Assembly: GCA_029858285.1 (NCBI GenBank)
Contig: JAOUFN010000005.1
Coordinates: 1-64,000 of the forward strand
Direction: 5' to 3'
Origin: Nitrospirota bacterium
GTDB lineage: Bacteria; Nitrospirota; JACRHL01
DNA: 64,000 bases
Shown: positions 378 to 52,781 of the stretch, piece by piece
How positions within the stretch are numbered: position 1 is the stretch's first letter
Layout: each line of letters opens with the position of its first letter
The notes under the pieces: model-generated
Databases searched by the model: none
Seen by the model: the letters and a program-made list of their open reading frames with translations, nothing else
Told to the model about the DNA's origin: nothing
Position numbers and translations under genes: made by a program

Positions 378-719
378 ATGAAGTTGGTTCGCAAGGGCTG
401 GTTGGTTGCATTGGCGGTGGTGTTGGGTGTGTTTTTGGGCGCCACTCATTCGCTGGCGCAGGACGCCGCCGCTCCCCCGAAGCCGAAAAAAATGGTCATC
501 AACGGCATGTCCAGCGGTGTGCTGCGTGTGCCGGAGGTGGCTGTGTGGAGTTGCGCCGGTGGGCAGATGGGTGGTTGCAGCCTGGTGGGCAAGCTGGCCC
601 ATGGCACCGAAGTGACCCGCTTTGAAGATGGGGTGGCGCGCGGCCTGAAGTGGTACCGCATCGAAGGCGGTGACGTGAAGGGCTGGGTGCGCGAGGAATT
701 CCTTAAAAATCCTGGCTGA
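378..719 (+). CDS. Small secreted SH3-like domain protein
   Basis: This 113-residue protein has a signal peptide (hydrophobic stretch about 9-25, likely cleavage after SLAQ). The mature part of about 85 residues has the pattern of a bacterial SH3-like domain: a conserved W-S-C segment, a second Cys seven residues later (possible disulfide), a central G-x-L-x-H-G-T-E-V strand and a final W-Y-R-I...G-W-V-x-E-E-F block. Such domains usually bind peptidoglycan or peptide ligands in the periplasm; the ligand here is unknown. The start is supported by a GGGAGG ribosome-binding site seven bases upstream. It is a single-gene unit after the rRNA operon. Confidence 0.72.
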   Translation: MKLVRKGWLVALAVVLGVFLGATHSLAQDAAAPPKPKKMVINGMSSGVLRVPEVAVWSCAGGQMGGCSLVGKLAHGTEVTRFEDGVARGLKWYRIEGGDVKGWVREEFLKNPG

Positions 720-932
720 TGGCCCCCACTTGCAGTGACCTTCGGGGGGCCGCAAGGGTGGCCGTTCGGGCGGGCGTGTGTGTTTTCGTGCCAAGGCCGT
801 CCTGCTGACGCCAAGGCCCGTGTTGCGCGACCCCGGCGGGCCTGCTGACGGTGCGGGCTGCGGGCTGCGGGCTGCGGGGGGTTGAAAGGGGGGGGGCGAA
901 TTTGCCTTCGGGATTCCCCGCCTTGCCCTGGG

Positions 933-1337
933 CTACGGCGTGCGGTCGTCGCCCAGGGCAAGGCGGGGGGCATCGCCCCACAGGCGCTCAAGGCCGTAAA
1001 AATCCCGGGCCTCGTCGATAAAGACATGCACCACCAGATCGCCGTAATCCATCAGGATCCAACGGCCCTCGCCACGCCCCTCGATGTTGATGGGCTCGCG
1101 CCCGGACTGGGACAGGGCGGCGTCGATGCTCTGGTAGATGGCGTCTACCTGAGTGCTTGAGTGACCGGTCACCACCAGAAAAAAATCGGCGATGCTGGTC
1201 AGTTCCGTGACCTCAAGGGCGACGATGTCGTCGCCCATTTTGGCGTCGGCAGCCGCCGCAGCAATGCGCGTGGCCTGCTCCGCTGAAATTTCCTGGTGTG
1301 GTGCCGGGGAAGTGTGGGCTTGGGTGGGACTGCTCAT
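933..1337 (-). CDS. rsfS: Ribosomal silencing factor RsfS
   Basis: The 134-residue product carries the RsfS core: K-M-G-D-D-I-V-A-L-E-V, then L-T-S-I-A-D-F-F-L-V-V-T-G, the E-G-R-G-E-G-R-W-I-L-M-D-Y-G-D block and V-H-V-F-I-D-E-A-R. RsfS binds ribosomal protein uL14 and blocks joining of the 30S and 50S subunits under nutrient limitation. The first 25 residues are an extra N-terminal tail. In many bacteria rsfS directly follows nadD; here nadD is about 4.8 kb away on the same strand, with two opposite-strand genes between, so rsfS relies on its own promoter. Confidence 0.93.
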   Translation of the reverse strand: MSSPTQAHTSPAPHQEISAEQATRIAAAAADAKMGDDIVALEVTELTSIADFFLVVTGHSSTQVDAIYQSIDAALSQSGREPINIEGRGEGRWILMDYGDLVVHVFIDEARDFYGLERLWGDAPRLALGDDRTP

Positions 1338-1348
1338 AATTTTGCCGG

Positions 1349-1377
1349 ATTATACAGGTAAAGCGCCCTGTGGACAA
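1349..1377 (-). promoter_or_regulatory. Sigma-70 promoter of rsfS, giving a near-leaderless transcript
   Basis: On the minus strand TTGTCC (1377-1372) and TATAAT (1354-1349) are exactly 17 bases apart. Transcription would start near 1342, only about five bases before the rsfS ATG at 1337, and no ribosome-binding site is visible. Confidence 0.7.
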
Positions 1378-1644
1378 CCGCCTTTCGGGGCGGTGCAAGC
1401 CAGAGGTGGCGTCATCGCCTGCCACCGGCGGTCTGGGGGGTGCGGAAAAAAGTGCGCACTGTTATCGCTGAACGGTTGACACGGTGCCGTCAAATTGGTT
1501 TGACTGTGTGCACATGTTGTGCATTGCGCGTGTGTCGGGGGGCTTGCCCACGCAGGCGGCAAGGGCGGGTAAAAAGTTTAAAAACCGATGGGGCGAGTCC
1601 GGCGGCGCCGGATATCTCCCCTCTTTGTGTAACAGGGGGGTGTC

Positions 1645-46179: not shown

Positions 46180-46938
46180 TTATCTCTCCGGCGGAATGTC
46201 GGAGGGCGGCGGCAGGGAGCCCCGCATGTCACACTGCCACACCCAGTCGTTGTCGGCCCGCGAGCAGATGTTGAAGCGGGCCGCGTCGAAGCGCAGAACG
46301 TAGCGATCCCCCTTTTCTCCCAGCCGCTGGTAGCGGAACGGTCGGGGGTGAGTTCCCGTGATCGCGGGAGGAATTTCCATCCCGGCAAGCTCTCCAAGTT
46401 CCTCCAGCGAGATGGGGTACATCCCGTATTCGTAGAGAACTTCCTTCAGTACCGTCCGCAGTTGGTTTTCGCGTTCGAAGGCGGCCTGCGTGGCGCCCGA
46501 CAGGATGGCGTTGACCACCAGAAACGCCAGCAATACCCCGACCATCAGATTGCGAGTGCGCTTCAGCCCGGCCGGGGGAGCCCACGCCGGGGGGCGCAAC
46601 CCCAACGCCACGGCGGCCACCCCCAGCAGGAGAACGGCTACCAGCACCCCTTTGCCGAGGGGGTCGTGGCCGAGGGAATGTTCCAGAAAAAACAGGAAGC
46701 TCGCGTACAGCAGCAACAAGTAGACCGGTCGCCACAGCCACGGCGCCAGCTTTTGCCAGGCGGTGGGCGGAGTTTCTGCCGTCGGTGCTTCAGCGGGTGA
46801 TGCCCCGGAGGGGAGATGGGCGCCAGATGGATCGCTGGACGGGCCGGACGCCGGTCGTTCCGGCGGCGGGGCGCCGGGCGGTGGCGAAACGGGCGGGGTG
46901 GGTGGGGTGGGTGGGCCCGGGGGGGTGGGCGTATTCAT
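46180..46938 (-). CDS. Pilin-like-domain membrane protein, paralog 3 of a tandem triplet
   Basis: The 252-residue protein has a Pro-rich cytoplasmic N-terminus (about 1-65) and three predicted helices: one around W-R-P-V-Y-L-L-L-L-Y-A-S-F-L-F-F-L-E-H-S, one of small residues, and one ending in V-N-A-I-L. An amphipathic helix leads to Y-E-Y-G-M-Y-P-I-S-L-E-E-L-G-E-L, resembling the post-helix region of type II pseudopilins. A Cys pair near the C-terminus (C-S-R-A-D-N-D-W-V-W-Q-C) is shared with both paralogs. I know no named family. It is 13 bases after the preceding paralog. Confidence 0.7.
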   Translation of the reverse strand: MNTPTPPGPPTPPTPPVSPPPGAPPPERPASGPSSDPSGAHLPSGASPAEAPTAETPPTAWQKLAPWLWRPVYLLLLYASFLFFLEHSLGHDPLGKGVLVAVLLLGVAAVALGLRPPAWAPPAGLKRTRNLMVGVLLAFLVVNAILSGATQAAFERENQLRTVLKEVLYEYGMYPISLEELGELAGMEIPPAITGTHPRPFRYQRLGEKGDRYVLRFDAARFNICSRADNDWVWQCDMRGSLPPPSDIPPER

Positions 46939-46951
46939 GCCGGGGTGATCC

Positions 46952-47635
46952 TCATGGTGTTGTTGTCGAGCCGGCCTTCCTGCTGCACTGCCACAGGGAG
47001 GAGCCACCTCTGCCGGAGTCATCGGACAGGGAGCATACCCGGAACATGGGGGCGTCAAAGCTTAGCGTGTAGTGCTCTCCGTTCCCCCCGAAACGCTCAT
47101 AGTGGAATGGCACGGAGTGACGCAGCCCCATTGCCGTGGGGGGGATGCTCGTGGAGGAAATGCCCCCCAACTCCTCCAGCGATGCGGGGTACAGGCCGTA
47201 GTCGTAGAGGCACTGTTGCAGTGCGGCCAGCACATCCATGGAGCGGTTGATGGTGGACGCCTCCAGCGCCCCCAGCGCGGCATTGGCCACCAGAAACAGG
47301 ACGACCACCCGCGTGGCCATGCGACGGACACCCAGCCATCTCTCCGGTGTGGGCCACAGCAGACGGCTCAAGCCCACGGCCAGCAGGAGCGCAATGATGA
47401 CCACAGTCGTACCGAGTGCGTCCCTGCCCAGGGAATGATCCAGAAAAAACAGGAAACAGGCGTACAGAAATAGCGCCCGCGACGGCTCCCATACCCATGG
47501 GGACACCCGTTTCCAGGTGGAGGGGGGCGGGGTGACTGGTGGCATCGCGGAAAAAGGCGGAACGGATGCCGGGGCAGCGGGCGGAGCCGGTGTCGCCGGG
47601 GGGGAGGCCGAAATATTTTGTGGCGGGGCGCTCAT
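46952..47635 (-). CDS. Pilin-like-domain membrane protein, paralog 2 of a tandem triplet
   Basis: The 227-residue protein shares the three-part plan of its neighbours: a Pro/Ala-rich N-terminus, helices with F-L-Y-A-C-F-L-F-F-L-D-H-S-L-G-R-D-A-L-G, then Y-D-Y-G-L-Y-P-A-S-L-E-E-L-G-G-I and a terminal Cys pair (V-C-S-L ... W-Q-C-S). ATG 47635 overlaps the stop of paralog 1 by four bases. Function unknown. Confidence 0.7.
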   Translation of the reverse strand: MSAPPQNISASPPATPAPPAAPASVPPFSAMPPVTPPPSTWKRVSPWVWEPSRALFLYACFLFFLDHSLGRDALGTTVVIIALLLAVGLSRLLWPTPERWLGVRRMATRVVVLFLVANAALGALEASTINRSMDVLAALQQCLYDYGLYPASLEELGGISSTSIPPTAMGLRHSVPFHYERFGGNGEHYTLSFDAPMFRVCSLSDDSGRGGSSLWQCSRKAGSTTTP

Positions 47636-48390
47636 GCGTCCGTGTCGGGGGGGGCCGAAGGGAGGTTGCCGTTCGTGGTGCATCGCCACCCGGAGGCGAG
47701 GTCCTGGACGCGGTCGGTCTGCGAACAGATGACGAACATGGCGGAATCGAAACGCAAGATGTAGTGCCCCCCGTCTTCTCCAAAGCGCTGGTAGCGGAAC
47801 TGTCCTGGGTGGCGCAGTGATGCCGTAGGGGGGATGCCCATGGCGGCCAGTTCACCCAGTTCCGCCAGCGAAACGGGGTACATCCCGTATTGTTGAAAGC
47901 ATTTTCTCAACGCGCTCTGCAATATCCAGGCGCGGTCGATGGTAAATGCCTCGGTCACCCTCAGGATCGCGCTGGCTACAAGGAACATGACGAACATGTG
48001 TGCCGCCAGTGTGCGGCCATCCGTCAGCCGCTTCGGTGTGGCCCAAAGCGGGGGGTTCAATGCCAGCGCCATGGTTCCCGCTCCCAGCAGGATGATGGCT
48101 GTAAGCGCCATCTTGCCGAGGGGATCGGGGCCCGAGGAGTGATCCAGAAAAAAAAGCAGGCCGACGTACAGTGCCGACAGATAAAGTGAGCGCCACAACC
48201 ACGGCACCAGTTTTTTCCGCATGACGGAAGGCGCAACCGAAGGCGGTGCGGTGCCAGGTGGTGTGGCGTCCGATAGAGTGCCGCCGGGCGGTGCGTCGGT
48301 TGGCGGTGAACCCGGTGGTGGAATGGCGGGTTCTGGCGAACCGGAAGGACCGGGCGGGGCCGACGGGCCCGGCAGGGTCGGCTCATTCAT
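47632..48390 (-). CDS. Pilin-like-domain membrane protein, paralog 1 of a tandem triplet
   Basis: The 252-residue protein has a Pro/Gly-rich N-terminus (1-60), helices including L-Y-L-S-A-L-Y-V-G-L-L-F-F-L-D-H-S-S-G-P-D-P-L-G, then Q-Q-Y-G-M-Y-P-V-S-L-A-E-L-G-E-L and a Cys pair (V-I-C-S ... W-R-C-T). It is the first of three related genes and overlaps the SAM hydrolase stop by four bases, so all four genes form one operon. Confidence 0.7.
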   Translation of the reverse strand: MNEPTLPGPSAPPGPSGSPEPAIPPPGSPPTDAPPGGTLSDATPPGTAPPSVAPSVMRKKLVPWLWRSLYLSALYVGLLFFLDHSSGPDPLGKMALTAIILLGAGTMALALNPPLWATPKRLTDGRTLAAHMFVMFLVASAILRVTEAFTIDRAWILQSALRKCFQQYGMYPVSLAELGELAAMGIPPTASLRHPGQFRYQRFGEDGGHYILRFDSAMFVICSQTDRVQDLASGWRCTTNGNLPSAPPDTDA

Positions 48391-49172
48391 GCGGCGGTCA
48401 CCTGCTGCGCCGTGACCGGGCCACCCACGTGTGCCCCTAGTAGTTCAGCGGCAGAGCCGTCGCGGACAAACACTTCAATGCGCCCGCTGCTGCCGGGGAT
48501 GAACGCCGCCACACCGGGCAGCACGTCGCCGTAATGCCGCGCCCGGTAGACGGTGTGGTGGCCCAGGGTCACCGAGCGAATGCGGTCCACCAGTTCCTCG
48601 GGCAGGCTGGTGACCAGGTTGCCGAAGCGGTCTATGTGCAGCACCATGCCGCGCCACCCCTCCGTAACCTGCGCCGCGCCGGGCAGTGGGCGTGCGAGAT
48701 TGTCGGTTATGCGTGGTCCGAAAGCCGCTGGAGCCTTTCCCATGGCCAGATGCGCGGCCGCCGGGGCGAACACGTCGCGGCCGTGAAAGGTGGCGGAACG
48801 GCGGGCGGGCAAAAAATCCGGCACGCCGATCTGATGCGCGACCAGTTGGCCGTCCGCCTCCAGCAGGGGGGCGAGCACCCCGTTGTCGGGGCCGACAAAA
48901 AAGGCGCTTCGCCCTTGGGCCACCAACGCCCGGCGCGGTCCCCCCACTCCCGGATCCACCACCACCACATGGATGGTGCCGGGGGGGAAAAAACCCAGCG
49001 ACTGGGACACCAGAAAGGCCCCCTGATCCACATTGAATGGCGGCACCTCGTGGCACAGGTCCACGATGCGCGCGGTCGGGCAGATGGAGAGGATTACCCC
49101 CTTCATGATCCCCACATAAGGGTCGTGGTGACCAAAATCGGTGGTGAGGGTGATTACCGGCGGGTTGGTCAT
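48387..49172 (-). CDS. SAM hydrolase/halogenase family protein (DUF62)
   Basis: The 261-residue protein has I-T-L-T-T-D-F-G at the N-terminus, V-V-D-P-G-V-G-G, F-V-G-P-D-N-G-V-L and a C-terminal I-D-R-F-G-N-L-V-T-S. These are the blocks of the SAM hydroxide adenosyltransferase family, which splits SAM to adenosine and methionine; halogenating members are rare. ATG 49172 has AGGGAAG upstream and fits the family start. It leads an operon with three uncharacterised membrane proteins. Confidence 0.9.
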   Translation of the reverse strand: MTNPPVITLTTDFGHHDPYVGIMKGVILSICPTARIVDLCHEVPPFNVDQGAFLVSQSLGFFPPGTIHVVVVDPGVGGPRRALVAQGRSAFFVGPDNGVLAPLLEADGQLVAHQIGVPDFLPARRSATFHGRDVFAPAAAHLAMGKAPAAFGPRITDNLARPLPGAAQVTEGWRGMVLHIDRFGNLVTSLPEELVDRIRSVTLGHHTVYRARHYGDVLPGVAAFIPGSSGRIEVFVRDGSAAELLGAHVGGPVTAQQVTAA

Positions 49173-50524: not shown

Positions 50525-51115
50525 CTACCAGCGTGCCTGTTTCTCAATTTGCGAGGCGAGGTCCTTGAGCGTATCGACGAGGGTATTGAAACGCTTGCCC
50601 CTCTTTAGCCACGCCCCGGCGGAGTGCAGGCGCTTTTGGCCCGTCGCGACCAAGGCGGCCTTTCGGGACTGAGCGCTATTGTGGGCCGCGAAGTTCCGGA
50701 GAGCCGATAGCTGCTCCAGTGCGGACCTGTATTTCTTTTTCTTCACCTCCTCTAGGAGGAAATGCTTGTCGGGCACAAACTCCTTGAGCACCTTGATGAG
50801 CCCGTCTCTGCCCTTGAAGTCGAAGAACCTCCCGCTGGTCACGAGGTACTCGCAGACCGCCTTCGAGAGATGCTTGGGGAATTTGATCCCCTTCCGATCC
50901 GACACGGTAGCTGTGTCGTTGTTGATGGACCCGACAAGGGCGTCGAACATCAACGACTCGAACCCACGGTACAGGTGAATCACCGCGTAATCGTACAGCA
51001 GTGACACGTGCTCATCGGTCGCCCCCTCCGTCCGCGCCTTGATAAACGCCGCCACTTTGTCGGCGTGTGTCCCGAAATCTCGGGTGCTTTTCTTGATGCT
51101 CCTCTTCCGCGCCAT
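50525..51115 (-). CDS. HEPN-like protein (possible RNase of a defence or toxin system)
   Basis: The 196-residue, Lys-rich, mostly helical protein has L-S-A-L-R-N-F-A-A-H-N-S with R140 and H145, an R-x4-H motif of HEPN ribonucleases, at the end of a helical domain. HEPN proteins often act as toxins or in phage defence. Base and codon use are less GC-biased than the neighbours, suggesting transfer. No cognate antitoxin is directly adjacent. Identification rests on the motif and fold pattern only. Confidence 0.55.
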   Translation of the reverse strand: MARKRSIKKSTRDFGTHADKVAAFIKARTEGATDEHVSLLYDYAVIHLYRGFESLMFDALVGSINNDTATVSDRKGIKFPKHLSKAVCEYLVTSGRFFDFKGRDGLIKVLKEFVPDKHFLLEEVKKKKYRSALEQLSALRNFAAHNSAQSRKAALVATGQKRLHSAGAWLKRGKRFNTLVDTLKDLASQIEKQARW

Positions 51116-51561: not shown

Positions 51562-52695
51562 TCAGTCGGACGGGAGAGATGTGCCGGTAAAGCTGTCCAC
51601 CAATGCCGCCAGGGCACGGCGTCGCTCCGGCGGCAGTTCACGCAAGCGGCGCAGCAGGTGTACCTCTTCCGCCGTCAGCAGGTCGCCCCCGTAGTTGCCG
51701 GGGGGCTGCGGCTGGGCCGCCCGGGCCATTCCGGAACCGGTTCGCGGGTAGGGCAGGGAATCGGCGCCAGCAAGCGGACGGGCGGCGTCCAGCAGCGGCA
51801 GCAGTTCGGAATTGCCCAAGTGCCCGGTACGCAGGCGTGTCAGGATGTCGGGGGTGGTCTCCAGGCTGAACACGGCCCCGCCGGGGATGGCACGCCGGAC
51901 CTCCGCCAGGGTGAGGGGGCCCAGGCTGCCCGCCAGCACCGCCACCACGGTGAAATCCACCCATCCGCCCGCGGATTGCAGCAGGTGGCCTGGCTGGGTG
52001 AGCGCCACGCACCAGGATTCCCCCGAATTGATCAGATTCACCGACCACCAGCGGCTGTCGTCAGTCAGGTGGCGACGCAGAAGGGCGGCGCAGGCCAGAT
52101 CGGTGTCCGGCGCTTCCACCACAAAAGGTGCTCCCTGACCATACAACAGCCAGGAGAGAGAGATGTTCTCTACCCGTGCCAGGGCGGACAGGGCATCTGC
52201 CGAGGGTGCCCTACCGTGCAGCAAGGCACCGATTTGCCTCTCTGACAATCCCATGGAAACTGCCCACTGCCGGGGGGGACGCCCTGCCATAATCTGGGCA
52301 ATGCGGCCTCCGAGCGCCGCCTGTTGCGACGGGGAAATCAGCCCCGGAATCTCTGGCGCGTGGGATTCGTCCGGTTCGACGTCCGCAGCTGCCGGGGTTC
52401 CCTGGGTGCTGGCGGGGTTTGCCTGGGCCGGGGCGGGGTGCTGAGGGGAGGAATGATCCTGGTCCATCCATCCCAGGGGTTTTCCTGTGGCGTGCTCGAT
52501 ACGTTCGGCCATGTCGTCACTCACCGGGCGTCCGCCCCCCAACAGCACTGACAGGTGGTTGGCATTGGATGCGATACGCTCCGCCAGAAATTTTACCGCC
52601 CCTCGTTTGCCCGCAAAGCGATCGTGGGTGATTTCCCCCAAAAGTGCCTCCAGGTTACGCCGACGGCGGTCGGCCCGGGTGTCGGGTTGGCCCAT
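51562..52695 (-). CDS. Phage-repressor-like protein with two HTH domains
   Basis: The 377-residue protein has a first HTH at about 20-75 (F-L-A-E-R-I-A-S-N-A-N-H-L-S...A-E-R-I-E-H-A-T-G-K-P-L-G-W-M-D), typical of CI-type repressors. A Pro/Ala linker leads to a second XRE-type HTH at about 125-195 (W-A-V-S-M-G-L-S-E-R-Q-I-G-A-L-L...L-S-W-L-L-Y-G-Q-G-A-P-F). The C-terminal 180 residues lack the Ser-Lys dyad of S24 self-cleaving repressors. It is divergent from the YdaS-like gene, as in phage CI/Cro switches. Confidence 0.72.
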   Translation of the reverse strand: MGQPDTRADRRRRNLEALLGEITHDRFAGKRGAVKFLAERIASNANHLSVLLGGGRPVSDDMAERIEHATGKPLGWMDQDHSSPQHPAPAQANPASTQGTPAAADVEPDESHAPEIPGLISPSQQAALGGRIAQIMAGRPPRQWAVSMGLSERQIGALLHGRAPSADALSALARVENISLSWLLYGQGAPFVVEAPDTDLACAALLRRHLTDDSRWWSVNLINSGESWCVALTQPGHLLQSAGGWVDFTVVAVLAGSLGPLTLAEVRRAIPGGAVFSLETTPDILTRLRTGHLGNSELLPLLDAARPLAGADSLPYPRTGSGMARAAQPQPPGNYGGDLLTAEEVHLLRRLRELPPERRRALAALVDSFTGTSLPSD

Positions 52696-52753
52696 GGAAA
52701 TACCTGTCTTGGCGTACACGGCCCACGCAGGATACACCATCTGCAAAGATGGC

Positions 52754-52781
52754 TTGACATATCTTCGCAATACGCTAATAT
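52754..52781 (+). promoter_or_regulatory. Promoter and operator region of the YdaS/Cro-like gene
   Basis: TTGACA (52754-52759) and TAATAT (52776-52781) have a 16-base spacer, one of the best promoter matches in the window. TAATATTA (52776-52783) is a perfect palindrome at the -10 box, and CGCAAT/ATTGCG arms flank it at 52767-52772 and 52791-52796. Confidence 0.65.

Follow-up and report, generated by a model that had tools for sequence, protein, structure and literature searches.

What usually defines a type IV pilin is a cleavable leader together with assembly; type IV pilins also carry a C-terminal pair of cysteines that belongs to the D-loop (D-region). In type IV prepilins and GspG-like proteins (PF07963, PF08334), a hydrophobic helix runs into alpha1-C and is followed by a YP junction, alpha2 and beta strands. 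According to the published definition, type IV pilins possess a class III signal peptide, a short hydrophilic leader that ends in Gly before the hydrophobic helix, and a Glu5 within the hydrophobic stretch (PMC4471445). The three tandem paralogs analysed here (the trio) share the order of elements of prepilins and GspG-like proteins, but differ from them in having two extra helices and a Pro-rich head, in lying outside any pilus or T2SS locus, and in lacking a match to T2SSG (PF08334) above the Pfam cut-off, whether the whole proteins or the isolated domain are searched.

The trio is encoded in a window of 64,000 nucleotides from a Nitrospirota bacterium, which is the whole stretch of DNA that was analysed, and the relevant features are the following:

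48387..49172, minus strand: SAM_HAT, a SAM hydroxide adenosyltransferase / SAM hydrolase (PF01887, 3e-56; PF20257), upstream of P0003
47635..48390, minus strand: P0003, first paralog, 252 aa, with the head at residues 1-63, TM1 at ~64-82, TM2 at ~94-112, TM3/alpha1-N at ~127-145, and a pilin-like domain at ~146-245 that contains the Cys pair C222/C237
47632..47635, minus strand: ATGA overlap of the P0003 stop and the P0002 start
46955..47635, minus strand: P0002, second paralog, 227 aa, with the head at residues 1-46, three TM helices, a pilin-like domain and the Cys pair C201/C217
46183..46938, minus strand: P0001, third paralog, 252 aa, with the head at residues 1-66, three TM helices, a pilin-like domain and the Cys pair C225/C236
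46210..46569, minus strand: TM3 and pilin-like domain of P0001, the segment modelled alone

On the minus strand the genes follow each other in the order SAM_HAT, P0003, P0002 and P0001. The stop of SAM_HAT overlaps the start of P0003 in an ATGA, the second ATGA joins P0003 to P0002, and P0002 is separated from P0001 by a 13-nt gap with no such overlap; the stop codons of the trio begin at 47634 (P0003), 46954 (P0002) and 46182 (P0001). The preliminary description, made from the DNA letters, had placed three tandem paralogs in one operon with a SAM hydrolase, and as a gene arrangement this is confirmed. The paralogs (46183-48390, minus strand) are 40-49% identical to each other, and a search with P0003 recovers P0001 and P0002 at E 1e-45 to 1e-63 with 43-49% identity. 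Furthermore, dN/dS between paralog pairs (NG86) is ~0.35-0.58 across the TM and domain regions, which suggests that the three open reading frames are real and under purifying selection.

The heads of all three paralogs contain 33-36% Pro, and each protein shows three hydrophobic segments, whose Kyte-Doolittle means over 19 residues are 1.2-2.4. The motifs x-L-F-F-L-D/E-H-S and Y-G-M/L-Y-P-x-S-L-x-E-L are found in every member, the C-terminal Cys pair is invariant, and the loop between helices 2 and 3 is positive (3-4 K+R) across the trio. The shared head, helices, motifs and cysteines listed in the preliminary description are therefore all present in the sequences. The charge pattern, including the positive loop 2-3, points to an N-in, C-out topology with the Pro-rich head in the cytoplasm; the cytoplasmic head of the preliminary description agrees with this pattern as a probable placement that is read from charge.

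As had been claimed, a prepilin cleavage site is missing: neither a leader motif nor a cleavage Gly occurs in P0001, P0002 or P0003, and two TM helices precede TM3. The hydrophobic stretch of TM3 is also free of acidic residues throughout the trio, so that an equivalent of Glu5 is absent. With no leader, no Glu5 and two additional helices, the trio does not qualify as pilins under the definition given above (PMC4471445), and neither processing nor filament entry is expected.

Searches of Pfam, NCBIfam, PADLOC and PDB sequences with the trio returned no family match. Profile comparison links it to another group of membrane proteins, and this group to prepilins. The connection runs through a remote hit (L008, in genome G047) that resembled the architecture of the trio, and a search with this hit led to a 3-TM family (A4; L049-L055 and L057) with eight copies in seven genomes of the same phylum. 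As in the trio, the third of the three helices runs into an alpha1/G-x-Y-P/alpha2/beta domain, and there is no leader. The members differ from the trio in that they are ~170 aa long, have neither a Pro-rich head nor a C-terminal Cys pair, and are encoded by single genes in other contexts. Their neighbouring genes are shared by members from a single family (f11) of the phylum but not outside it, therefore no function was drawn from gene context. In L008, the gene adjoining the 3-TM pilin-like gene (659-1459, minus strand) encodes a protein with about four hydrophobic helices and a C-terminal part that also looks pilin-like by eye. Three other hits (L005-L007) were discarded, having aligned almost solely over the Pro-rich head.

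Profile comparison with hhalign matched the trio to the 3-TM family with a probability of 85-87% and E 4e-6 to 6e-6; the score was 43.2, and none of 100 column shuffles exceeded 21.2. TM3 plus domain scored 39.1 (shuffle maximum 18.4), and with the soluble part alone the score was 37.6 (shuffle maximum 16.8). The TM1-TM2 hairpin scored 15.0, a value that 2 of 100 shuffles reached, and its similarity to that of the 3-TM family is not significant. The 3-TM family profile in turn matches prepilins with an intact GFTLLELM-type leader, starting at its TM3. Such a leader is present in 18 of the 23 weaker hits that were read out, a count made by eye that includes two hits (L088 and L091) labelled NO-LEADER by the distance filter of the script. 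The profile-profile comparison between the 3-TM family and prepilins gave E 1e-8 and a probability of 96%, an E value that is somewhat flattering because the prepilin set was picked by the 3-TM family profile itself. Compared directly, the trio and prepilins reach E 2.6e-5 and a probability of 75%, with a score of 34.3 versus at most 15.8 in 30 shuffles. The direct score against GspG is barely above its control (18.5 versus 18.2).

In the joint alignment, helix 3 of the trio lines up with the N-terminal helix of pilins, and the Y-G-x-Y-P-x-S-L-x-E-L segment with their alpha1/alpha2 junction; the best-aligned block is the helix-YP-alpha2 region, and the beta part aligns weakly. At the sequence level, these comparisons support homology of TM3 and the following domain to type IV pilins. 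The earlier claim that the C-terminal part is pilin-like and sits on an anchor of several helices is thus supported by profile homology and by the predicted order of elements, with the correction that the likeness is better placed from helix 3 onwards, since this helix aligns with the pilin N-terminal helix. The more specific resemblance to type II pseudopilins finds no support, since Pfam T2SSG is not matched and the GspG score is weak; the likeness is to the type IV pilin / GspG-like superfamily at large.

Structure prediction gave a similar but less firm picture. AlphaFold2 on TM3 plus domain of P0001 returned helices at H2-47 and H55-62 followed by four strands (pLDDT 62, pTM 0.48), and both models of the trio are of low confidence (pLDDT 54 and 62). 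The predicted long helix, short helix and four strands follow the pilin order of elements, which is what these models offer in favour of a pilin fold; they do not confirm the fold, and a Foldseek search of the PDB with the two low-confidence models gave no significant match. A kinesin fragment and hairpins of PCNA ranked highest, and the PilA minor pilin of S. sanguinis came at E 2.8. The PCNA-like hits, which span 36 hairpin residues, were discarded.

Taken together, the trio probably consists of tethered, non-assembling, pilin-derived domains that face the periplasm on a fixed anchor and form a putative interaction module. The Pro-rich head would lie in the cytoplasm and helices 1 and 2 would form a hairpin, while helix 3 would be the former pilin N-terminal helix, continuing into alpha1-C, alpha2 and a small beta-sheet. 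In the oxidising periplasm the Cys pair would probably form a disulfide and close a C-terminal loop in the manner of the D-region of type IV pilins. With neither leader, cleavable Gly nor Glu5, and with two extra helices, the proteins would escape processing by prepilin peptidase and extraction into a filament. The three paralogs would probably form a homo- or hetero-complex and bind an envelope partner or a ligand through the periplasmic pilin domain.

An alternative that we regard as quite unlikely is that the pilin likeness is limited to a helix and a G-x-Y-P turn, arisen by convergence or chance, and that the trio are orphan membrane proteins of this lineage with another fold. The missing Pfam, NCBIfam and PDB sequence matches would fit such a history, as would the low-confidence fold, for which Foldseek provides no support, and the weak direct score against GspG. 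It does not readily account for profile scores that are about twice the control maxima, with the 3-TM family and with prepilins alike, nor for a TM3 in pilin register that is followed in order by the YP junction and beta strands.

A fixed, pilin-derived module could also be thought of as a working part of the T2SS or type IV pilus of the host, for instance as a partner for docking or capping at the inner membrane, with its pilin domain paired to genuine pilins or pseudopilins. The host does have candidate partners, since contig C40 encodes ordinary T2SS pseudopilins, GspG among them, and a second cluster on contig C4 encodes pilin-type proteins; a pilin domain would be a natural pairing surface. 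However, the contig of the window (C29) carries no N_methyl-bearing or pseudopilin gene, the trio is accordingly not within a T2SS operon, and three relatives in the family that have GspG are without the trio. There is no signal of co-occurrence, and this role is very unlikely.

That the trio acts with the upstream SAM hydrolase, say by serving as its membrane partner in recruitment to the envelope or in control, is extremely improbable despite the ATGA translational coupling, as SAM_HAT is present in 11 of 11 genomes tested, the ten others have no trio, and the following slot is variable. In related genera this slot holds DUF3592 plus patatin, a phospholipid methyltransferase, or nothing, and since the link between SAM_HAT and the trio is not kept in three other genera of the family, the coupling is probably positional. 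The functional tie implied in the preliminary description was rejected on this synteny. In the nearest genera (L030, L031, L032), SAM_HAT adjoins greA, plus carB where the contig extends that far, both genes having been named by reading the sequence. Within the window, greA and carB are not next to SAM_HAT, and cbiG is divergent.

The distribution of the trio is narrow. Among 396 genomes from the phylum of the host it is present in this genome alone, no close relative was found among them, and it is absent from three other genera of the family. Plasmid tblastn recovered no relative, and neither did pattern scans of genome contigs and viral contigs; the coverage beyond the phylum consists of these scans, which detect close relatives only. 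The architecture was also not described in the literature searched, although its absence from that literature counts for little. It is an unusual arrangement without a name, made of parts that are already known.

Pilin-derived domains on other non-prepilin anchors occur in the same phylum. One protein (L044, 295-1743) carries DUF4388, a single TM helix and, at the C-terminus, a T2SSG-like domain, and two more (L089 and L094) resemble it, as judged from partial sequences; another (L074, in its match region) lacks a prepilin leader and joins a TM2-like domain to a TM helix and a T2SSG-like domain. The anchors of both types differ from that of the trio, and those proteins that were scanned pass the Pfam T2SSG cut-off, which the trio fails. 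With L044 and L074, a pilin domain on another anchor is thus encountered more than once. If pilin-derived domains do sit fixed on multi-helix anchors, the pilin fold would also be an ordinary periplasmic module, and this would account for a group of membrane proteins of the phylum that carry no annotation. The trio is a single case among these, specific to one genome. A broader and rather doubtful generalisation is a class of 'tethered pilins', in which domains have repeatedly lost their leader and been grafted onto polytopic anchors; its members might be fixed inner-membrane proteins that partner or regulate type IV filament machines, or might act as sensors in the envelope, and the trio would be an expansion to three members with its own disulfide loop.

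Two other genes of the window were also noted. A 196-aa protein (50525-51115, minus strand) has an R-N-F-A-A-H motif as in HEPN ribonucleases, belongs to no Pfam family and gives a weak CARF/Csm6-like match in PADLOC (E 0.014), and near it a 402-aa protein (51562-52770, minus strand) shows a sub-threshold match to HTH_3.
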